Notes under the pieces: generated by a model
The model's database searches: none
Told to the model about the DNA's origin: nothing
What the model saw: only the letters and a program-made list of their open reading frames with translations
Shown here: positions 12,139 to 26,518 of the stretch, piece after piece
How positions within the stretch are numbered: the first letter of the stretch is position 1
Layout: every line of letters starts with the position of its first letter
Source: a virus
DNA: 36,829 nt
Direction: 5' to 3' (one strand)
IMG/VR virus record: IMGVR_UViG_3300044821_000165
Location: 1-36,829 of that record
Made by a program: the position numbers and the translations under genes

Positions 12139-12702
12139 TTACCACGCCGCCGTGATGTTGCCGACGATCTTGATGGCGCCGCTGAAGGTGATGGCTTTGT
12201 TGTACTCGACGCCCAGCTTGTAGTCCTGCACATAGCCCTGGAAGATGAGCGTGCTCCCGTTGGTCAGCGAGATCTTCCAATAGTTCAGCGCGGCGCTGCC
12301 TGCGGTGCCGATGTTGGAGAGAAGAGCCTGGCTCGTCGGGTCGGCAGGATTCAGCACGCCGTCGAACTGCACGGTGTCGCCATCGACGATGGTCTTCATC
12401 CACTCTTTGAAGATGTTGGGCGAGTCCAGGTTGGTGATGTCATCGAACTCGGCCTTCAGCCCCGAGAAGTTGATCTTCTTGAGCTGAGCCACGTTGGTAT
12501 AGCTGGCGCCGGTGGTTCCGCCATTGGCCAGCTTCGAGCCATAGCCGGGATAAGCGATGGTGGTGCCGAACAGCGCGAAGGACGCCGCGGCGGCAAGCCA
12601 CAGGCAAAGGCTCTTGAGCTTGATTGCGCTCACGAGCAGCAAGGCCGCCAACACGATGCCGGCGGGAGTGAAAGCGGTGGCGAAGAACAGGAAAGCGAGC
12701 AT
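12139..12702 (-). CDS. tail tube protein paralogue with hydrophobic N-terminal extension
   Basis: A 187-residue protein. Residues 47-187 are clearly homologous to the next-door tail tube protein: both share AYPGYGSKL, AQL(K/R)KI, a D-TNL segment, GVL(D/N)P, and NKA(I/L)(T/G)F near the end. Residues 1-46 are extra and form two hydrophobic segments (1-26 and 31-46). The start at 12702 has AGGAG eight bases upstream, and no ATG, GTG or TTG occurs between the hydrophobic part and the tube domain, so the extension is real. A membrane-anchored or exported tube subunit is not expected, and its role is open. Confidence 0.75.
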   Translation of the reverse strand: MLAFLFFATAFTPAGIVLAALLLVSAIKLKSLCLWLAAAASFALFGTTIAYPGYGSKLANGGTTGASYTNVAQLKKINFSGLKAEFDDITNLDSPNIFKEWMKTIVDGDTVQFDGVLNPADPTSQALLSNIGTAGSAALNYWKISLTNGSTLIFQGYVQDYKLGVEYNKAITFSGAIKIVGNITAAW

Positions 12703-12724
12703 GGGGTTTTCTCCTAGTTGGAAA

Positions 12725-13159
12725 TCAGGCGGCGCCGGCGGGACTGGTCATGGCCCCGACGAGGCTTAGTTTTGCGGTGAATCCGAGAGCTTTGTTGTGT
12801 TGCACGGTGAAGGGCACGTACTCGGCAACCCGAGCCTGAAAGCTATAGACGGTCACGCCATCGGAAAGCAGCAGCACCTGCCACCAAGCAAGCGTGAGTG
12901 CGGCGTGCAGCGTGCCGAGTTGCAACTGGCTGCCGTTCTGCGGATCGAGGACGCCTTCGATCTCGATCTGGCCGGCATCGATGAGCGTGGCCAGCGGCCG
13001 CGTGAAACTGTCGGGCGTGAGCAGGTTGGTCTGGTCGACCGTGCTCTGCTTCGAGCCGGAAGGAATGATCTTGCGCAGCTGCGCGATCGAGAAATAATGC
13101 ACCGCATCGGTGGAGCACTGCAGCTTCGAGCCGTAGCCGGGATAGGCCTTCGTGGTCAT
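12725..13159 (-). CDS. major tail tube protein
   Basis: A 144-residue beta protein placed right after the tail terminator, in the usual place of the tube subunit that polymerises around the tape measure. It begins directly with MTTKAYPGYGSKL and has no leader. It shares roughly a third of its positions with the following gene (AYPGYGSKL, AQLRKI, GVLDP, NKALGF). Its start overlaps the terminator stop as ATGA. Compared with lambda gpV it lacks a C-terminal Ig domain. Which of the two paralogues is the main subunit cannot be told from sequence, but the leaderless one is the likelier. Confidence 0.8.
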   Translation of the reverse strand: MTTKAYPGYGSKLQCSTDAVHYFSIAQLRKIIPSGSKQSTVDQTNLLTPDSFTRPLATLIDAGQIEIEGVLDPQNGSQLQLGTLHAALTLAWWQVLLLSDGVTVYSFQARVAEYVPFTVQHNKALGFTAKLSLVGAMTSPAGAA

Positions 13160-13569
13160 GAAGTCTCGGTGTAGAGCGCGCGGACGCGCAGGATGGCGCG
13201 GAACACGTAGCCGCCGCCGCCCAGTTCGTAAGGGTCATCGGCGTTCATGGTGACGTCGCTGAACTGCATCACCGTGCCATCGGGCAGCGCGCCGGTGAAG
13301 TCCTGCACCAGGTTGCGAACGGTTTGCGCCAGCGTGCGCGCCGTGGGCTGGTCGTTGGCGTAGCAGTCGAACTGAATCTCGCCCTCGGTGAGTGCGCTGG
13401 ATCCGTCGAGCGTGTTCTCGGCCGAGGGCGCGTTCACCACATGCAGCACCACGTAGGGCGCCAGGGCCTGCTTCTGCGCCAGGCTAAAGAAAACGTTGGT
13501 CGGAGCGCCGAGCAGTTTCTTCACCGCCGGCGTCGTGGTGAGCAGCGTCCACAGGCCTTGCAGAATCAC
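13156..13569 (-). CDS. tail terminator / tail completion protein (DUF3168)
   Basis: A 137-residue protein matching the DUF3168 family: N-terminal WTLLTTTPAVKKLLG, then PYVVLHVVNAPSAENTLDGSS, QFDCYANDQPTARTLAQTVR and the C-terminal beta strand GYVFRAILRVRAL. The family caps the finished tail and joins it to the head. It starts with GTG at 13569, one base after the stop of the 1051-residue gene, and overlaps the tube gene as ATGA. No separate ribosome site is obvious, which points to coupling with the long gene upstream. Confidence 0.9.
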   Translation of the reverse strand: MILQGLWTLLTTTPAVKKLLGAPTNVFFSLAQKQALAPYVVLHVVNAPSAENTLDGSSALTEGEIQFDCYANDQPTARTLAQTVRNLVQDFTGALPDGTVMQFSDVTMNADDPYELGGGGYVFRAILRVRALYTETS

Positions 13570-13570
13570 G

Positions 13571-16500
13571 CTAGTGCGATCCCCGCGCCACGCCGTATCC
13601 CGCGGGCGTGGGCACGCCTGCCCAGAAGAGCTGCTGGAAGAGCTGCTGGTAGGTTACATAGGGCGCCAGGCCCGAGGTGCACAGCGTGTCAATGTAGGTC
13701 TCATAAGCGCAGCGGTAATCCTGCGCATAGATTTCGAGGTAGAGCGGCTCGCCGAAGCGCAGGAACGCGCCCAGTGGAAGAAGCTTGTCGAGGCAGCCGG
13801 TCGAGGAAGTTCCGGTGCTGCACGTCGGATCGCTCTGCGCGAAGGTCTGCAACTCGAAGAGCTGCGTGCGGCCGTTGTAGGTCTTGAAGAGCGCGCACCA
13901 GTCGTCGGTGCAGGCCGTGCCCGCGGCGAAGGCCGTGAGGTCCGAGTACTGCATGCCCTGCGCGCCGAAGCTGAGGCCGTTGGCGACGGCATTGGCCGCC
14001 ATCGAGTCGGCATTCGCGTTTGTGAGCCCGAGCGCTCCGCCCGAGATCGACGTCATGCCGACGAAGGTTGCATTCGCAGGCTTGCCCGCGGCCGTGCCGG
14101 CGGCGATCTGCGAGACGCCCTGCACCCACGCATTCTGCAGGCAGGTGGAGCTGTTGTTGCAAACCAGCTGAAGCTGCGTGTTGTTGCGCGTGAAATTCTC
14201 GCCACCGGATCCGAGCGAGTTGCGCAGATAAACAACCTGGCTGGCATAGGGCGCGTTGGCCACATGCGTCATCACGTTGTTGATCCAGTTCACTTTCGCC
14301 TGCAGGCACGGAGTTTCCCAGCATGCGGGAAAGCCCGCCTGCAGCAGCGTGTCGGTGCAGGCGCTGCCACCGCATGCAGTGGCCGAGTTGATGTTCGCCG
14401 TGGTGCTGACCGGCCAGTTGGGATTCGTGGTGCCAGGGTTGCTCGAAGAGAAGCTCGCATCCTGCGGCGGTGCGGTGGATCCAAAGCTCGTCCAACTGCA
14501 GGCGCCGGCGGTGGTGGGCGGAACTGCGCCTGCGCTGCACGTACCGCTGGCGGGCTGAGCCTGGTAGTAGTTGCCGCCATAGGTGACGGTCCAGCCATAG
14601 CTGTAAGTGGAATTCGCAACCCAGGGATTCGGCGCAGCGTTGGCCCAGGGCTGGTCGAAAACATAGAGCGGCGTGTTCGCGTTCACCGTGGCCGAGCTGG
14701 CGCTGCCATCGACCAGGCCCACCAGGCAAGGCGTTCCGCCGCCGGGCAGGCTGGCGCCGCAGGTTTGCGAAGTGTAGCCGGTGATGACAGTGTCGAGATT
14801 GACGAAGCTGTAGCTGCCGGGAACGGTGTTCGATTCCACGCCGAGATCGAGGCCGTTCGTCACCTGGTTCTGCGCCCAGCGCATGATGATGACGACGCCG
14901 CGCACCCAGGGAAGGTCGTTGGCTTGAACGGCGCAATAGCCCGGTGAGCCACCAGTTCCGCTGGGGCATCCGCCCGTAGTCGGCACCAGCGGCGGCGTGG
15001 CCATCATGGGAATCACGTTGCTGGCCGGAAGTTTGCTGCTGCTGGTGGAAGCGCCGAGATACTGATACGCGCCCTGATCCCACGTGGTGCGCGTGTTGGG
15101 CGTGTAAGCCGAGGGTCCGACAACATATCCGCCTTCGCCCACCACTTCCGTGGGTCCGAGCGTAGTGCCGAGCAAGCATGCGGCCGCGGCCGTGGTGTCG
15201 GAGATGAGCGCACAGATGGAAGCTTCGCTGGTGCCGGCGTGCACGGTCGATCCACCGGTCATGGGGGAGAAAGGGAAAGCTTCAGACAGGCTATAGCCGC
15301 TCGCGTTCCATGTGGCCTGCGACTGCACCGAGTTGGTCGTTCCCGTGTTGAGCGTGCGGGATCCGCCGGTGCCGATGGTGTTATTGAGAGATCCGCCGGT
15401 GATGCCCTGCGTGTTGTACAGGTTGAACGTGGCGCTGGTGGCCGCGTAGTCGAGTGTATAGATGGGCGTGGTGATCGACCCGCCATCGGGTCCAGGCTCG
15501 CGCGTGTTGTTGAAGGCGTTCCAGGTGATGCCTGAAGAGCTGGCGACGCCCTGCAAAAGCCAGCCCTGCGCATTGCTCGCGTTCTGGTTCAGCATGACGG
15601 TGTTGAACACGTAGCCCGTCGCGCCGGAAGACAGCTCGGGGGTGAAGGGCGAGTTGCAGCCGCCGATGCTGGGCACGAAAACGTTATAGAAATAGAGCCC
15701 GCTGCTGCCGATGTTGTTCTGGTAGACGTTGGCATGGGTGACGCCGTCGAAGTCGCACTGCGGATCGATCACCGCGAGGTCATGGTGGTTGACCACACCG
15801 GTGATGTTCTCGTTGATCGCGTTGGCCACGCCCGCGATGTAATTGCTGTACTGGATGCCCGGTCCACCGCCGAAGGCCGCGCCGCTGTGGCAGGCGCCAG
15901 CGACCACGGCGTGCGAGCAATCGGGCTCGGCCACGTCGCGGCCGTCGATGACGGAATTGTGTACGGAGCTGAGCGCGTTGTTTTGCCCGTTGATGTAGAA
16001 CACCGCCACGCCGTCGGAACAATAGGGAATGTTGCAGGTGCCGTTGTTGCATGTGCCGCCGGGCGGGGGATAGAGCGGTGTGGTGCAGTGGCTCCATCCG
16101 TGGGCATAGACATCGGTGGCTTCAAAGTCGACGCAGGTGCTGGTGTTGTTGCACGCCACCATGCCTTCGGTGGTGGTGCCGCTGTTGCCGGTGTTGGTGA
16201 CGCTGAAGCCGGTGATCTCGACCGTCTGCAGCTTCCAGTGCGGGCAGTAGCCATACTCGAGCATGGCGGACGATGGCGCGGTGCGCGTGCCGGGATAGGT
16301 GCCGCCGCCGGAAAAAATCGGCCGCGTGAAATACGAGCCCACGAACCAGGTCTTGTCGAGCCCGCCATCGATGATGGGAACGCCGACGCTGCCGCAGGCG
16401 TTGGTGCTGTTATCCATGCGCGCCGGCCAGCTCGCTGCGCCCCAGGTGTCGCCGCCGCGGAAAATGAATTCGTCACCCGGTTGCGGAGAGTAAGCGCCCG

Positions 16501-16726
16501 CGGTGCCGGTGGCGTTGTTCATCCCAGGACGATGCACCCAGGCGGTCAGCTTGCTGGTGCCGGTGTTTGAATCCGAGCAGCCGGATCCGCCACAGCCCGT
16601 GGCGCTGTTGTCGATGTAATAGACCGTGCCGGTGGTCTTGCCTGTTGGCACGATCAGCAAGAGAACGCAGATCGCGATCAGGAAAACCAGCAGCGCGGCC
16701 CAACCGATGAAAGAAACTTTCTTCAT
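13571..16726 (-). CDS. large membrane-anchored beta-helix and TIM-barrel-like protein
   Basis: A 1051-residue protein. It starts with a lysine pair and a single strong membrane segment (about residues 6-26), then TGTVYYIDNSATGCGGSGC, the usual start of right-handed beta-helix proteins (pectate-lyase fold), which runs to about 590. From about 600 (PWVRGVVIIMRWAQNQVTNG) to 1040 the pattern fits a glycosidase-like TIM barrel (VVYLRNSLGSGGENF, FGEPLYLEIYAQDY). A shortened W-to-G module lies at 702-749. Many paired cysteines suggest folding outside the cytoplasm. ATG 16726 overlaps the upstream stop as ATGA. It may be a polysaccharide-degrading fibre or a surface enzyme of the lysogen; activity is inferred. 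Confidence 0.7.
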   Translation of the reverse strand: MKKVSFIGWAALLVFLIAICVLLLIVPTGKTTGTVYYIDNSATGCGGSGCSDSNTGTSKLTAWVHRPGMNNATGTAGAYSPQPGDEFIFRGGDTWGAASWPARMDNSTNACGSVGVPIIDGGLDKTWFVGSYFTRPIFSGGGTYPGTRTAPSSAMLEYGYCPHWKLQTVEITGFSVTNTGNSGTTTEGMVACNNTSTCVDFEATDVYAHGWSHCTTPLYPPPGGTCNNGTCNIPYCSDGVAVFYINGQNNALSSVHNSVIDGRDVAEPDCSHAVVAGACHSGAAFGGGPGIQYSNYIAGVANAINENITGVVNHHDLAVIDPQCDFDGVTHANVYQNNIGSSGLYFYNVFVPSIGGCNSPFTPELSSGATGYVFNTVMLNQNASNAQGWLLQGVASSSGITWNAFNNTREPGPDGGSITTPIYTLDYAATSATFNLYNTQGITGGSLNNTIGTGGSRTLNTGTTNSVQSQATWNASGYSLSEAFPFSPMTGGSTVHAGTSEASICALISDTTAAAACLLGTTLGPTEVVGEGGYVVGPSAYTPNTRTTWDQGAYQYLGASTSSSKLPASNVIPMMATPPLVPTTGGCPSGTGGSPGYCAVQANDLPWVRGVVIIMRWAQNQVTNGLDLGVESNTVPGSYSFVNLDTVITGYTSQTCGASLPGGGTPCLVGLVDGSASSATVNANTPLYVFDQPWANAAPNPWVANSTYSYGWTVTYGGNYYQAQPASGTCSAGAVPPTTAGACSWTSFGSTAPPQDASFSSSNPGTTNPNWPVSTTANINSATACGGSACTDTLLQAGFPACWETPCLQAKVNWINNVMTHVANAPYASQVVYLRNSLGSGGENFTRNNTQLQLVCNNSSTCLQNAWVQGVSQIAAGTAAGKPANATFVGMTSISGGALGLTNANADSMAANAVANGLSFGAQGMQYSDLTAFAAGTACTDDWCALFKTYNGRTQLFELQTFAQSDPTCSTGTSSTGCLDKLLPLGAFLRFGEPLYLEIYAQDYRCAYETYIDTLCTSGLAPYVTYQQLFQQLFWAGVPTPAGYGVARGSH

Positions 16727-18894
16727 TGCACGTAACTCAAGACGCCCACCGCCGTGGGCGAAGTGCCGGCCAGCTGCGTACAGAGTGCGTTCGCCACCGC
16801 GGTGACGCCCACGGAAAACGGCGAGGCGACGGGCGCGGTGGTGGAAAGCGGAATCGCGCCCATGAGCGTGGTGGTGCCGGTGCCGCAGTTGGTTCCGGTG
16901 CCGTAGACCAGGGAGAATGTCGGCGAGGTCCCGCCGCCGATCACGATGAACGAACACACGTAAATCTTCTTGCCCGCAGCCAGTGCGATCAGCTGCACCG
17001 CCGACGTGGTGGAAGCGTTGATGTTGATCGAGGCATAGCTGGAGTTGTTGCCCATGCAGCCGTTCGACGTGGTGCGGAAGCTGACCGAGAGGTTGCCGGA
17101 AGCGTCGAGCTGCAGGGGAAGAGTTTGCCCAGTGGTGGGCGCGGGCGCGGCGCTGTTATAGATTCCGCCGGCGACGTCGGTGTAAACCGGAGCGGCGCCG
17201 GGCACGGTGCCCACCATGGCGGTGGCTGGCACGTTGAACGTCGGCGCGCCTGGCAGCGTGGCCCACTGCGGCGTGATGCTGCCTGTGCCGGTCATCAGCG
17301 TGGTCAGGTTGGCGCGCACGTTCACATAGCCCTGCGCCAGCAACAGGAAGGGCTGGTTGGTCGACGCGACGAAGGTATAGGGGTTGGTGAGCTGCGCCAA
17401 CGTGTTCGGGTTCAGCACCTGCGCCACCGGGATCGTCACCCAGTTCACGTTGTCATAAGTTCCCTGGAAGGTGACGGCGCCGCCGGTGACGGTGGTGGTC
17501 TGGTCGAGTTGCACCAGTACCGCGGGCGCGCCCGCGAGCTGGCCCTGCGTAGCCGTGCCCGTGGGATACTGCAGCGTGTTGATGGTGGTGGCGTTGTTCC
17601 ACGCCGTGCCCGCCTTGAACTGCACGCCGGGAAATTCAAGCGTGTTCCCAGCCTGGTCCGCCTGGATGGCGACGGTCTGCGCGGCGGTGGGCGCGGGCAT
17701 GGTGGTGTTGTACTGGCTGAGTGTGGCGAGTGCGTTGGTGGGCGCTGCGCCGGCCGCGACGGTGGCATCAATGGAAGCGCCGCCGCCGCCCGAGACTCCG
17801 ACTTTCTGAATGCCGGCGGCCGCGAGCGTGACGGCTTTGCCGCCGATAAGTTCAACGTCCGCCGTCACCTGCCCGACGCCTGGCGTGGCATTCACCGTGA
17901 CGACTGCGGTGCCGGTGGCAACGGTATTGCCGCAAACTTCGGCGCTGGTCGCGCCCTGGGGAACGATGTTCCATTGCCCATTGGCGGTGATGGTGGCTGC
18001 GCTCGAAGCCGCGGGGAATGTGGCATAGACGAGAGCGTTGGTGTAGTTGGTTCCATCGATCGAAACTTTCGGCTGCAGCGTTCCGGTCCAGGTTCCGCTG
18101 ACAACGACTCCGATCTCGCTCGCGCCGCCGACGGCCACGACGGCGCACTGCGAGGCCGTGATGTTGGTTGCGCCCGAGGTGGCAGTGACGTTCTGAATAT
18201 TCACGCCAACGTTGCCGCTGCTGTCGGTGGCGATCGCCTGCTGGTTCCCGCTGCCGTTCTTTCCGGCGACCAGCAAGGCTTTCGAGGGTACGGCGGAACC
18301 GGTGGATCCATCGGCCGCGTCGGTAGTAAGCCAGGGAGTGCTGTTGGCGGTGTTGCCCGGCTGCACGGTCCATGTTCCCGACTGCGCAACATTCTGAGGG
18401 TTGGGGAAGTTGCTAACCGTGACGTTGCCGCCGCCACCACCGCCGCTGCTCGATGGTTGGCTCACATAGCCGAAAAGCATGACGGTGACCGAGCCCGAGC
18501 CTGTGATGCTCGGCGTGAGCTGACCGTAGAGTGTGGGCGTGGTCGCAGTGGTGTTGCTGTAGGATCCGGCAGCCGCCGCCGATCCGATGGTGGCCGCGGC
18601 GATAATGCCGCCCGTGGTCCAGGACGTGCCGGTGGCCGAAGAGTCCAGCGACAACGTAGCCGCAGAGACTGTGCCCGTGGGGACGAAGAGGACCTGCCAA
18701 AACGTGAGCCCCTTCACCGAAAACGCGCCGGTCGCGGTTGACGACGAATTGAAGGTGCAGGTGAGCCCCAGTTGCCACGGCTGGGACGATCCGGAAATGG
18801 GCGTGCACCCGGTCTGCGCCTGGCCGCTGGGAACGAGACACAGCAACAGGAAAAGGGCGAGGCCGAGCGGAACAAAATAGCGATTCGGTTTCAT
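16723..18894 (-). CDS. secreted fibre-like beta protein
   Basis: A 723-residue protein with a standard signal peptide (MKPNRYF, hydrophobic core, then SGQAQ before a likely cleavage site near residue 27). The rest is low-complexity beta sequence rich in T, S, G, A and V, with repeated GTW(T/N) units, a glycine run near 155, and phrases such as TDSSGNVGVNIQN and LPLQLDASGNLSVSF that recur in phage structural proteins. AAGGA lies about nine bases before ATG 18894. It is coupled to the 1051-residue gene by ATGA, so the two are probably made in fixed proportion. A surface fibre or adhesin is the best guess; no enzyme motif is seen. Confidence 0.65.
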   Translation of the reverse strand: MKPNRYFVPLGLALFLLLCLVPSGQAQTGCTPISGSSQPWQLGLTCTFNSSSTATGAFSVKGLTFWQVLFVPTGTVSAATLSLDSSATGTSWTTGGIIAAATIGSAAAAGSYSNTTATTPTLYGQLTPSITGSGSVTVMLFGYVSQPSSSGGGGGGNVTVSNFPNPQNVAQSGTWTVQPGNTANSTPWLTTDAADGSTGSAVPSKALLVAGKNGSGNQQAIATDSSGNVGVNIQNVTATSGATNITASQCAVVAVGGASEIGVVVSGTWTGTLQPKVSIDGTNYTNALVYATFPAASSAATITANGQWNIVPQGATSAEVCGNTVATGTAVVTVNATPGVGQVTADVELIGGKAVTLAAAGIQKVGVSGGGGASIDATVAAGAAPTNALATLSQYNTTMPAPTAAQTVAIQADQAGNTLEFPGVQFKAGTAWNNATTINTLQYPTGTATQGQLAGAPAVLVQLDQTTTVTGGAVTFQGTYDNVNWVTIPVAQVLNPNTLAQLTNPYTFVASTNQPFLLLAQGYVNVRANLTTLMTGTGSITPQWATLPGAPTFNVPATAMVGTVPGAAPVYTDVAGGIYNSAAPAPTTGQTLPLQLDASGNLSVSFRTTSNGCMGNNSSYASININASTTSAVQLIALAAGKKIYVCSFIVIGGGTSPTFSLVYGTGTNCGTGTTTLMGAIPLSTTAPVASPFSVGVTAVANALCTQLAGTSPTAVGVLSYVQ

Positions 18895-18912
18895 GATGGG
18901 GATTTCCTTCTT

Positions 18913-19305
18913 TTAGCTCGCGCCACCGGCGTTCGAGTTGATTTCGAAGCAGTAGATCTTGAGCTGCATGTGCATCTCGTCGGGATCGACGACTGCGGCG
19001 ATCTGAAATGTGCGGGTGGATCCCGCTTCGTTGAACTGCATCGTCATGCTCTCCAGCACTCCCAGCCGGTAGGTGATGACGGCCAGGTGAGAGACTCGCT
19101 GCGCGATCTGCTGCGCTTTGTCGAGTTCGTCGCCGGCCACGGCGTAGAGAGCGGCCCACGTGGTGAAGGCCGGGCTGGCCGGCCCGACGATGCCGCCAGC
19201 GCCCGCGGCGCCAGGCGAGCAGAACGTGACCTGGCGGTTGAGCGCACCCGGCGGCACGAGCTGGCCTGCGCGCGGCAGGCCAGCGGAAAGCCTTCGTAGC
19301 GACAT
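18913..19305 (-). CDS. head closure / head-tail adaptor protein
   Basis: A 130-residue protein like the head-tail joining family (SPP1 gp16 / HK97 gp7 type). It has the family's order: an N-terminal LNRQVTFCSPG strand, TTWAALYAVAGDELDKAQQIA, the SHLAVITYRLGVLESMTMQF strand and FQIAAVVDPDEMHMQLKIYCFE at the end. It closes the filled head and forms the tail docking site. Its start overlaps the upstream stop (TAATG). It is followed by the two large secreted-protein genes and not, as usual, by gp10 and the tail terminator. Confidence 0.85.
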   Translation of the reverse strand: MSLRRLSAGLPRAGQLVPPGALNRQVTFCSPGAAGAGGIVGPASPAFTTWAALYAVAGDELDKAQQIAQRVSHLAVITYRLGVLESMTMQFNEAGSTRTFQIAAVVDPDEMHMQLKIYCFEINSNAGGAS

Positions 19306-19754
19306 TAGTTGGTCTGAAGCACCGCAAACTTCACGGCCACGTTGCTGCAGGTCATCTGGATCGTCCCGCCCTGCTGCCAGCCGGTGAGGTTCTTCATTTG
19401 CACCGCGGCGATGACGCCGGCGGCCACCGAGTAGCTGGTGAGGGAAGTGTCGAGACGGTTGAGGCTGTCGGCCACGCTGGTGACGGTGAAGGTGTAAGTG
19501 CTGCCGCCGGTGTTGTTGACCAGCAGCACCTCACGGCCCGTGGACGCGAACGAGTTGCCGTTCGTCGTATCGCAGGCGGTGAAGGTGAGGTTGAGCGAGC
19601 CCGCGGTGATGGGCGCATTCGCCGATCCGTTGATGAGCAGCACCTGGGTGCTGAGCAGCGTGGGTGTGGCGAAGGCGGCGATGCTCGACATGGTGACGAG
19701 CAGCAGCACGGCGGTGATGCGCGTGAACAGCGAAGGCTTTTTAGTCGGGTGCAT
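19305..19754 (-). CDS. neck-region structural protein with a signal peptide
   Basis: A 149-residue protein. The part after residue 28 follows a small phage structural family found next to connectors (TPTLLSTQVL, GREVLLVNNTGGSTYTFTV, SVADSLNRLDTSLTSYSV, VAVKFAVLQ at the end). Here it is preceded by a signal-peptide-like leader (KKPSLFTRITAVLLLVTMSS). ATG 19754 has AGGAG 11 bases upstream; an internal ATG inside the leader has no ribosome site, and the longer frame from 19784 would include the ribosome site as coding. It lies between connector and head-closure genes. Cytoplasmic assembly and a signal peptide do not fit together, which makes it a key gene to test. Confidence 0.7.
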   Translation of the reverse strand: MHPTKKPSLFTRITAVLLLVTMSSIAAFATPTLLSTQVLLINGSANAPITAGSLNLTFTACDTTNGNSFASTGREVLLVNNTGGSTYTFTVTSVADSLNRLDTSLTSYSVAAGVIAAVQMKNLTGWQQGGTIQMTCSNVAVKFAVLQTN

Positions 19755-19793
19755 AAGGGTGAGTTCTCCTGTTGTAAATTGCATCGAAATCGA

Positions 19794-20693
19794 TCAGCCT
19801 CTGGTGCCGCTGAGCTGAGGAACGCGCCAGCGCCAGAGCATCCGCTCCAGCGCGGGATTCTTGGAAACGGAACCAGCGACGGACGCTTCGCGGTTGTAGT
19901 AGCCATCGGCAATGATGATCCGCATGGCCTGGCGCAAGGCCGCGGGCGCTGCTTTGCCGTCGTTGCCATAGCCCGCGGTGAAGTGAATCTGCACGGCGTT
20001 CGGAACGTAGAGCACGGGCGGCCAGGTCTGCCCTGGCATGGGGAAAATTCTCGGCGGGCAACTGTCGGCGTCGTAAATAAAATCGCCGGTATCAGGCAGT
20101 GCGCCCATGCACGTCCAGGTGAGCATGCCGTCGACGGTGGTGCTGCCCGAAAGCGTTGCCCACGTGGGCTGGGTTGTGCCCGACATGGAAGTGGAATCCT
20201 CGTCGCCTTCGCTGACGGCCGTGACCTGCTGCAGGTTGCCGTGGGAATCCTGAATCTGATCGCCGAGCGAATACTCGTGCAGCGGCTGCCAGTTGAACTG
20301 CGCGGGATAGAGCGCCTGGATCTGCTGGGTGACGCTGTCGGTGTAAGTGATTTTCGAAACCGACTGCAGCGGCGACCGCATCAGCTTGATCATCTGCGAA
20401 TAGTTCCACAGCGTGGTGGAGTACCGGGGCAGCGAGTAGTAGCTGGGCGGGTAGGCCATCTGCGACATCATGGAATCGACAAAATAGGGGAAGGAGTCGA
20501 GCGACTGCCGGTAGCCCTTGTTGACGATCGAGCGGCCAGTGAAGCCTTCCACTTCCTCACGCGCCGACTGAATGAGATCGGCGATGTAGAGATCGTCGCC
20601 CGTGGTGGCGCCGTCAACTTTCAGGAAGTTCTTCACCGCGGCAACGGTGAGCGGTTCGGCGACCGGCGCGACTTCTTCGACTAGATAGGCCAT
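19794..20693 (-). CDS. gp6-like head-tail connector with inserted carbohydrate-binding-like module
   Basis: A 299-residue protein. The ends match the HK97 gp6/SPP1 gp15-type connector: LTVAAVKNFLKVDGATTGDD and LIQSAREEVEGFTGRSIV at the start, SPLQSVSKITYTDS in the middle, and PNAVQIHFTAGYG with ALRQAMRIIIADGYYNREA at the end. Residues 135-198 (W to G, with SHGNLQQVTAV, TTQPTW and DGMLTWTCMG) are an insertion shared with the tail-tip protein. The family is usually about 100-200 residues, so the insert explains the extra length. The connector forms a ring below the portal; an outward-facing module there would decorate the neck of the virion. Confidence 0.85.
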   Translation of the reverse strand: MAYLVEEVAPVAEPLTVAAVKNFLKVDGATTGDDLYIADLIQSAREEVEGFTGRSIVNKGYRQSLDSFPYFVDSMMSQMAYPPSYYSLPRYSTTLWNYSQMIKLMRSPLQSVSKITYTDSVTQQIQALYPAQFNWQPLHEYSLGDQIQDSHGNLQQVTAVSEGDEDSTSMSGTTQPTWATLSGSTTVDGMLTWTCMGALPDTGDFIYDADSCPPRIFPMPGQTWPPVLYVPNAVQIHFTAGYGNDGKAAPAALRQAMRIIIADGYYNREASVAGSVSKNPALERMLWRWRVPQLSGTRG

Positions 20694-20706
20694 GAAGGGT
20701 CAGTTC

Positions 20707-20889
20707 TTAGCGGCGTTGCTTCGGGCGCGCTCCGGCTTGCGCAGGCGCGACGGCGCGTTCGGCGGATTGCGCCACGGCCATCGATTCAACCTCGTCGGCG
20801 GTGCCGCCGAGGATCATGGCGCGGGCAACGTCAGGCACCATCTCGGTGACCTGGCCAGTTTCGCGAATGCGAATGGTGATAAAGCCCAT
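20707..20889 (-). CDS. small unknown head-module protein
   Basis: A 60-residue protein with the beta start MGFITIRIRETGQVTEMVPDVA (in short: an amphipathic strand pair followed by a helix ARAMILGGTADEVE) and a basic tail PKQRR. The start at 20889 is fixed by GGAGG eight bases upstream, which also overlaps the end of the preceding gene. This type of short protein after the capsid genes is common in HK97-like phages, but no function is known to me. Confidence 0.7.
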   Translation of the reverse strand: MGFITIRIRETGQVTEMVPDVARAMILGGTADEVESMAVAQSAERAVAPAQAGARPKQRR

Positions 20890-20893
20890 GGGT

Positions 20894-21160
20894 TCAGCCT
20901 CCAAACAGTCTTTCGAATTCTTCCGCGAGCTGGTCATCGTTCAGCGGAAAGTCGAACGCGAGTTGCAGCTCGTCTCGGCGATTTTTCTTCCTCGGCACGG
21001 GCGCAAGCCGCGCCGGCCCCGAGATGCCGGGCGAGGGCCTTTTGTTCGGACGGTAAAACGCGCCGCCCTCGGTGGCAGCGAGCACGCGATCGGCGAGGGC
21101 GTGGCCGCCGCCCGCCGATCGCACGGCTCGAAGGTGATACTGCCGGTTGAACAAGAGCAC
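20894..21160 (-). CDS. unknown 88-residue head-module protein
   Basis: The protein begins at a GTG (21160), five bases after the stop of the decoration-like gene. Its middle is basic (RKKNRRDE) and its end is acidic and helical (FPLNDDQLAEEFERLFGG). The acidic end and the nearby strong ribosome site of the next gene support translation of this frame. The start is uncertain (TTG two codons later is possible). No family is recognised. Confidence 0.55.
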   Translation of the reverse strand: MLLFNRQYHLRAVRSAGGGHALADRVLAATEGGAFYRPNKRPSPGISGPARLAPVPRKKNRRDELQLAFDFPLNDDQLAEEFERLFGG

Positions 21161-21165
21161 CTCTT

Positions 21166-21699
21166 CTAGGTGATGGTGACGCCGCTCGATGCTTCCACCA
21201 GCCAGAAGCCGGCGCGGGCTACGAGGGTGACAAAACTTCCCCTTGTGCCGTTGAAGGTAACCACGTGGTGAGCAGGAACAATCTTGCTTGCCGCCGTGGT
21301 GACGGTGTGGGCGTTGCCGCTGTTGTCGAAAATGGTGATCGACAGCCCATCGTTTCCGCCGGCAGAGGGAGCGCCCGCCACAGGCGTGGCCAGAGTAGTC
21401 GCGTCGACGCCGGCAGTTTCGATGAAGGAAGTTCCGCAGATGGGCGGTACTGCGTTTGCGCCCAGGACTCCGCCGCCGCCGGTGATGACGTCGGTGGTGC
21501 CAGTGAGAACTTCATATTGGAAGGGAACGTTGGCGGCCTGGCCGAGGATGGTGTCCTGGTCAGGCGAACTGGGTCCGACGAGCGGACTCTGATTCTGCAC
21601 GGTGATCAAGGTGCCGAACGCCACGAGACCGAGCGCCAGCAAAGCCTTCATCGTGCCCGCCAGAGTGATGGAAGCGAACATCAAAGCTGCGAAGTGCAT
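21166..21699 (-). CDS. decoration-like structural protein with N-terminal membrane segment
   Basis: A 177-residue protein just downstream of the capsid gene, the usual place of head decoration proteins. Residues 110-177 carry a beta pattern common in phage structural proteins: GNDGLSITIFDNSGNAHTVT, then HHVVTFNGTRGSFVTLVARAG and WLVEASSGVTIT. Residues 1-34 are extra and hydrophobic (MHFAALMFASITLAG and LLALGLVAFGTLITV). ATG 21699 has AGGAG eight bases upstream, and its 91-base leader is longer than most gaps here. ATG 21651 inside the leader (MKALLALG) would still leave a membrane segment. Capsid decoration is inferred only from position. Confidence 0.7.
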   Translation of the reverse strand: MHFAALMFASITLAGTMKALLALGLVAFGTLITVQNQSPLVGPSSPDQDTILGQAANVPFQYEVLTGTTDVITGGGGVLGANAVPPICGTSFIETAGVDATTLATPVAGAPSAGGNDGLSITIFDNSGNAHTVTTAASKIVPAHHVVTFNGTRGSFVTLVARAGFWLVEASSGVTIT

Positions 21700-26281: not shown

Positions 26282-26518
26282 TTAGCGGCGTGGGGCACGA
26301 ATGCCGCGGATGAAGCTGGTGGCGATGCCCGTCAGCGGGAAAATCAGACAGAAACTTCCTGCCGCGATGAGCGCAAACTTCAGGCCGGCGGCGAGGCCGA
26401 TGCCGGCAGTGACCAGCAGCGCGCCGCTGATGTAGAGCAGATCCTGGTGAAGCTCGGCGCGGCGCTTCGCCTTTGCGAGTTCTTCCGGCTTGGGGAAGGG
26501 AACTGTCTGCGCGCTCAT
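26282..26518 (-). CDS. small two-TM membrane protein between terminase and portal
   Basis: A 78-residue protein with a charged N-terminus (EELAKAKRRAELHQDL) and two hydrophobic segments at about 29-46 and 48-65, ending in the basic RGIRAPRR. Its start overlaps the large terminase stop as ATGA. Membrane proteins at this point of a packaging operon are not part of the standard HK97 set. It could be an extra holin, an exclusion factor or a membrane tether for packaging; there is no sequence basis to choose. Confidence 0.7.
   Translation of the reverse strand: MSAQTVPFPKPEELAKAKRRAELHQDLLYISGALLVTAGIGLAAGLKFALIAAGSFCLIFPLTGIATSFIRGIRAPRR

Follow-up and report, generated by a model that had tools for sequence, protein, structure and literature searches.

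Hydrophobic leaders on virion-type proteins of uncultured tailed phages and their possible connection to the inner membrane

Background

Head and tail assembly of tailed phages is considered a cytoplasmic process. In M13/fd, the major coat protein is made as a procoat (gene 8 product), whose removable leader places it in the inner membrane before the particle is assembled, and in T4, prohead initiation is membrane-bound (gp20/gp40), with an assembly factor anchoring the portal. Phages are also known to export lysis proteins via Sec-type signals, e.g., SAR and exported endolysins (PMC8951688).

Here, we analyzed a virus record of 36,829 bases (the whole stretch is referred to as the window) in which a tail tube protein (tube2), a decoration-like protein, a neck-position protein and two large proteins (p723 and p1051) begin with hydrophobic leaders. 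The likeness to the M13/fd procoat lies in a putatively removable leader on a coat protein before assembly; we do not claim membership in the M13 kind, as M13 is filamentous and extruded through the membrane, whereas the leaders described here belong to the tail tube, decoration and neck of a tailed phage, and those ending in FG-T (hyphens mark leader junctions throughout) have no N-terminal charge. With T4, the locus would share a tailed-phage morphogenesis beginning at the inner membrane, but the T4 shell proteins themselves have no leaders. Similarly, tube2 shares fold and family (PF16461) with lambda gpV, although the gpV domain has no hydrophobic leader and tube2 has 46 extra N-terminal residues. 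The neck and p723 leaders show the canonical three-part layout of Sec/SPase I signals and of SAR and exported endolysins, while the passenger here is a virion-type family protein and not a lysis enzyme. Leaders on tailed-phage shell proteins were not described in the literature searched (subscription journals were largely outside its scope), no recognizable homologue of tube2, neck or decoration was found in 50,697 phage records, and no related isolate phage was found for any of the three. The first-pass annotation, which knew of no described tailed phage with this pattern, is borne out by both searches.

Results

The genes of the window lie on the minus strand. Those identified for morphogenesis were the terminase (PF20441/PF03354), the S78 prohead protease and the major capsid protein, together with a connector (PF05135), a head closure protein (PF05521), a tail terminator (PF11367) and two tail-tube paralogues, as well as tape measure, tail tip and lysis genes. 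The features considered in this study are as follows:

26282..26518, minus strand: small membrane protein with two helices, encoded between terminase and portal; its gene overlaps the terminase stop
21166..21699, minus strand: decoration-like protein, 177 aa; open reading frame with an AGGAG site, next in line after the major capsid gene; relatives have orthologues in the corresponding position
21613..21699, minus strand: decoration-like leader, MHFAALMFASITLAGTMKALLALGLVAFG, with the end VAFG-TLIT; missing from orthologues starting MTQITAQ/MTLITSP at the same column
19305..19754, minus strand: neck-position protein, 149 aa, between connector Ad1 and head closure Hc1; matches PHROG_16194 'tail protein'
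19668..19754, minus strand: neck signal peptide, predicted as canonical Sec-type, MHPTKKPSLFTRITAVLLLVTMSSIAAFA-TPT, with positive n-region, hydrophobic core and AFA before the junction; missing from orthologues starting MSQTALT
16723..18894, minus strand: p723, secreted-type protein with a predicted signal peptide at about 18817..18894 (..LLLCLVPSGQA-QTG)
13571..16726, minus strand: p1051, with a predicted N-terminal membrane anchor or signal at about 16637..16726; 35 cysteines, ATGA overlap with p723
12725..13159, minus strand: tube1, leaderless tail-tube paralogue (MTTKAYPGYG..); PHROG_158, 38% identical to the tube2 body
12139..12702, minus strand: tube2, lambda gpV-type tail tube protein with leader, 187 aa; PF16461, PHROG_158, Foldseek
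12565..12702, minus strand: tube2 leader, 46 aa, with the end ALFG-TTIAYPGY; 14 leadered and 14 leaderless orthologues

All five starts proposed by the first-pass annotation were present on the minus strand and each protein opened with a hydrophobic leader. The strong ribosome sites it had reported for four of them were likewise found: AGGAG at 8 nt (21699), AGGAG at 11 nt (19754), AGGA at 10 nt (18894), and AGGAG at 8 nt (12702). The start of p1051 at 16726 has no good ribosome site and is probably coupled to the translation of p723, because its ATGA overlaps the p723 stop. The best 19-residue Kyte-Doolittle means of the leaders were 2.24 for tube2, 1.86 for the neck and 1.74 for the decoration-like protein, and the N-termini of p723 and p1051 were strongly hydrophobic (15-residue maxima of 2.86 and 3.73, respectively).

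Relatives were gathered with the capsid, tube2, decoration-like and neck proteins as queries. The leaders go beyond chance: start, ribosome site and leader were found together again in homologues of tube2 (14 distinct), of the decoration-like protein (about 17) and of the neck (about 43). Every leadered tube2 relative had an ATG behind AGGAG and a leader of 33–62 residues ending in FGTT. Codon comparison of close pairs of tube, decoration-like and neck genes gave leader pN/pS values of 0.2–0.8, thus below 1 in every close pair, from which it follows that the leaders are translated and constrained. A start codon with a ribosome site at the leader end was found in none of the leadered genes inspected. 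Judged by this sequence comparison, the leaders are genuine and not annotation errors, and the earlier statement that they are not wrong starts stands, given the conserved upstream ATG with AGGAG and the protein-level constraint.

In alignments of tube2, the decoration-like protein and the neck, the leader ends at the column of the ancestral start Met. Leaderless tubes beginning MTTTAYPG or MATIAYPG align with ..LFG-TTIAYPG, the leaderless decoration-like MTQITAQ with ..LFG-TTITAQ, and the leaderless neck MSQTALT with ..AFA-TPTALT or ..AFA-SQTPLT. The codon aligned to the leaderless start Met encodes glycine (GGN) in 30/30 leadered tube and decoration-like genes, and the residue before this glycine is Phe in 14/14 tubes and 13/16 decoration-like genes. 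With the leader end falling on this ancestral start column, a cut there would match the leaderless relative after a presumed Met loss. The comparison of starts across relatives, which had been suggested as a possible refutation, cut both ways: some homologues do begin after the leader, but these have no leader DNA, and the leadered genes carry GGN with no Shine-Dalgarno-backed start at this position. The first-pass annotation had overlooked the leaderless orthologues, the junction exactly at the ancestral start Met, and the existence of two leader classes.

Leader states can be mixed within one phage, as in the L050/L062 contig, where decoration and neck are leadered and tube2 is leaderless; in L013 the neck is the only leadered protein, and the necks of L121/L126 are leaderless. 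Two decoration-like genes (L046:967-1488 and L059:3960-4484) have an odd short leader (MITRL..TKFMTQITA) in which the Met of the ancestral start is retained; they may be intermediates or forms with two starts.

Over their first 12 residues, all 23 neck leaders listed have a net charge of +1 to +4; a hydrophobic core follows and, in nearly all cases, an AFA-type junction. With a positive n-region, a hydrophobic core and small residues at -3/-1, as in Sec/SPase I substrates, the neck leader qualifies by its sequence as a Sec signal peptide of the canonical kind. Those of tube and decoration end in (L/I/A)FG-T, have no acidic residue and a net charge of 0 in the first 12 residues (27/27). The positive n-region of Sec/SPase I signals was sought in them and was absent in 27/27, and because of this zero N-terminal charge they were not classed as canonical Sec signals. 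The similarity between tube and decoration leaders depends on residue order, as 0/400 joint shuffles, in which entire alignment columns are permuted, reached it, either with or without the last four residues; the tube and decoration-like proteins themselves are unrelated. We read the tube and decoration leaders as one putative module with one recognizer, compatible with either a common origin or convergence. The structural model of the tube2 leader has helices at 2–10 and 13–44 and a low-confidence linker at 41–52. A lipoprotein signal on p723 (..LLLCLVP) was rejected, as Leu precedes the Cys instead of the G/A/S of a lipobox.

The mature neck domain contains a cysteine pair in 36/42 leadered homologues in which the site was readable vs. 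0/31 leaderless ones (Fisher 2e-14, a statistic that ignores relatedness), with six leadered necks having no such pair. The pair never occurs without the signal, which fits disulphide formation outside the cytoplasm. On the tree of the mature neck domain, the signal changes nine times and the cysteine pair five times, but no more than one change is required by the branches with support; the idea that signal peptide and cysteines were gained together many times independently was considered and dropped, since the tree cannot bear it out. Export of the neck protein by Sec and its cleavage are likely by these sequence features. Its AlphaFold model is beta-rich (pLDDT 87.5), and the fold search with this model gave no confident match. 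At L109:10001-10856, two neck genes lie side by side, of which only one encodes a signal peptide. No cysteine shift accompanying the leader was found in the tube2 or decoration bodies; the latter often have a single cysteine.

As had been proposed, the leaders lie on virion-type proteins; for tube2 this holds by family and fold, while the decoration is named by position only and the neck by position and PHROG match. For tube2, the PF16461 profile gave 27.4 bits (curated cut-off 26.1), PHROG_158 an E-value of 3.8e-14, and Foldseek retrieved lambda gpV (7t2e; E 2.3e-6, prob 1.00, TM 0.42–0.49 on a moderate model). It is the sole leadered protein with a firm structural assignment, secure by family and predicted fold, with a virion tube role predicted from these. 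Of the tandem tube paralogues (12139..13159), tube2, the second, is probably the major tube protein, as its ribosome site is stronger and it matches the profile better. The 39.9 kb contig that holds L043 contains one recognizable tail-tube gene by profile search, the leadered one (the record may be incomplete), whose product presumably forms the tail tube of this phage. None of the 26 decoration-like homologues had a Pfam or PHROG family, and the 'decoration' name comes solely from the position after the capsid gene, while the 'neck' name is based on position and on the PHROG 'tail protein' family (PHROG_16194) matched by 13/28 neck homologues. Sequence searches of solved structures gave no match. 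In p723, the leader and first ~120 aa are conserved among phages and the remainder is variable; segments of p1051 recur in proteins from two Acidobacteriota genomes. By sequence, both look like secreted-type accessory proteins. Large secreted-type proteins recur within the head-tail operons of related contigs, e.g., three in tandem with signal peptides just upstream of the connector gene (L107:15-7594).

In control proteins, with starts picked by the same method as for the leadered ones, a hydrophobic N-terminus was found in 0/84 connectors, 0/48 head closure proteins, 0/53 portals, 0/56 proteases, 0/29 tape measures and 0/25 chaperones, as well as in 3/42 tail terminators, none of them a leader extension. 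Low-copy and inner morphogenesis proteins carry no such leaders. Among the relatives, two lineages (L106/L195 and L008/L009/L016) have major capsid proteins that are extended ahead of the usual start by a positively charged N-terminus with a transmembrane segment, behind AGGAG sites; such capsid genes are located at L106:6611-8314 and from L008:2788, L009:7943 and L016:5387 onwards. Homologues of the two-helix membrane protein (23 distinct sequences) occurred in related contigs of leadered and leaderless phages alike. The absence in controls, the capsid leaders and the two-helix protein together point to a possible membrane-coupled morphogenesis in this group. No phage protease besides the S78 prohead protease was recognized among the proteins scanned.

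A host search with the tube profile against species genomes returned nothing. The capsid profile retrieved nine loci, most of them in Acidobacteriota-type MAGs and the others in one archaeon-labelled record and alphaproteobacterial records; the Acidobacteriota capsid loci inspected carry leaderless tubes. The 396 Acidobacteriota genomes gave one weak match each for tube and decoration and none for the neck. As the capsid relatives are mostly in Acidobacteriota MAGs, these sequences make an Acidobacteriota host likely.

Discussion

We give roughly an even chance to the explanation that removable export or membrane leaders bring abundant virion-shell subunits to the inner membrane and couple their maturation to it. 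The neck would be exported by Sec, cleaved after AFA and usually disulphide-bonded in the periplasm, while the leader of tube2 and the decoration-like protein would be inserted as one or two membrane helices (likely from its composition) and removed at FG-T (plausible). In all three, removal would leave the same mature N-terminus as in the leaderless relatives after Met removal, and the particle need not change; the change would concern the place in which subunits are kept or put together, either at the membrane or, until lysis, on its far side. For tube2, assembly at the membrane or release upon cleavage is more likely than periplasmic assembly, since a tail tube polymerizes on a non-exported tape measure and full export is hard to reconcile with this. 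Counting against the explanation are also the tube and decoration leaders with no Sec-like positive n-region, the S78 enzyme as the sole phage protease recognized among the proteins scanned, a cysteine-signal association with few resolvable events and six exceptions, decoration bodies with no cysteine shift, and nearest homologues that are metagenomic. Of the first-pass suggestions, membrane-coupled assembly or export is better supported now and stays one candidate reading among several. A more tentative proposition, on balance doubtful, is that in one lineage of tailed phages particles are built or completed at the inner membrane or on its far side, by means of swappable leaders on decoration, neck, tail tube and sometimes the major capsid protein that are cut to the leaderless mature form.

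Should the tube and decoration leaders instead be retained, hundreds of hydrophobic hairpins would cover the exterior of tail and head, and the particle could bind or carry host lipid or attach to the inner face of the membrane for assembly. Their resemblance to one or two helices rather than to a Sec signal, the expected location of both proteins on the outer surface and the membrane protein encoded beside the portal agree with this; nonetheless, we regard it as unlikely, as a junction with an invariant Gly and an almost invariant Phe is more readily explained by processing and the leaderless orthologues need no such surface. Slightly less probable still, the leader would act in the cytosol, as a propeptide or a handle for chaperones, preventing early polymerization and being cut at FG-T by a cytosolic protease. 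This would account for the exact junction and for leaders chiefly on high-copy self-assembling proteins, but ~45 residues that are mostly hydrophobic and include no acidic one should enter the membrane, the features of the neck leader clearly mark it as a Sec signal, and no leader-linked protease or chaperone was found.

The first-pass annotation had also considered exported copies as decoys or for exclusion. In the fuller form of this reading, the leadered proteins would be non-virion copies (decoys, exclusion or a surface coat), with leaderless paralogues such as tube1 building the particle. Despite the leaderless tube1 adjoining tube2 in the window, the one leaderless and one leadered neck gene of L109 and the resemblance of p723 and p1051 to secreted accessory proteins, this has lost ground and appears improbable: the sole recognizable tube gene of the L043 contig is leadered, a second decoration or neck gene was not found in most contigs, leaderless and leadered tube2 occupy the same locus, and the major capsid protein of other members, in two lineages, is itself leadered. 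Mis-called starts, with translation beginning internally after the leader, would explain why leaderless orthologues begin exactly at the junction, and they are by far the least credible reading. The junction codon is GGN with no Shine-Dalgarno-backed start, and the upstream ATG with AGGAG is conserved in front of a leader constrained as protein; barring a non-standard start, leader pN/pS and junction codons refute mis-calling for tube2 and the decoration-like protein.

The shared FG-T leader is a candidate new protein-targeting module. Leaders that have come or gone repeatedly on tail tube, decoration, neck and even capsid proteins, with a junction at which the leaderless mature end would be restored, challenge the cytoplasmic-assembly view for a widespread uncultured soil group. 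By adding membrane or export leaders to shell and tail proteins, these phages may make, hold or finish parts of the particle at the membrane and not free in the cytoplasm.
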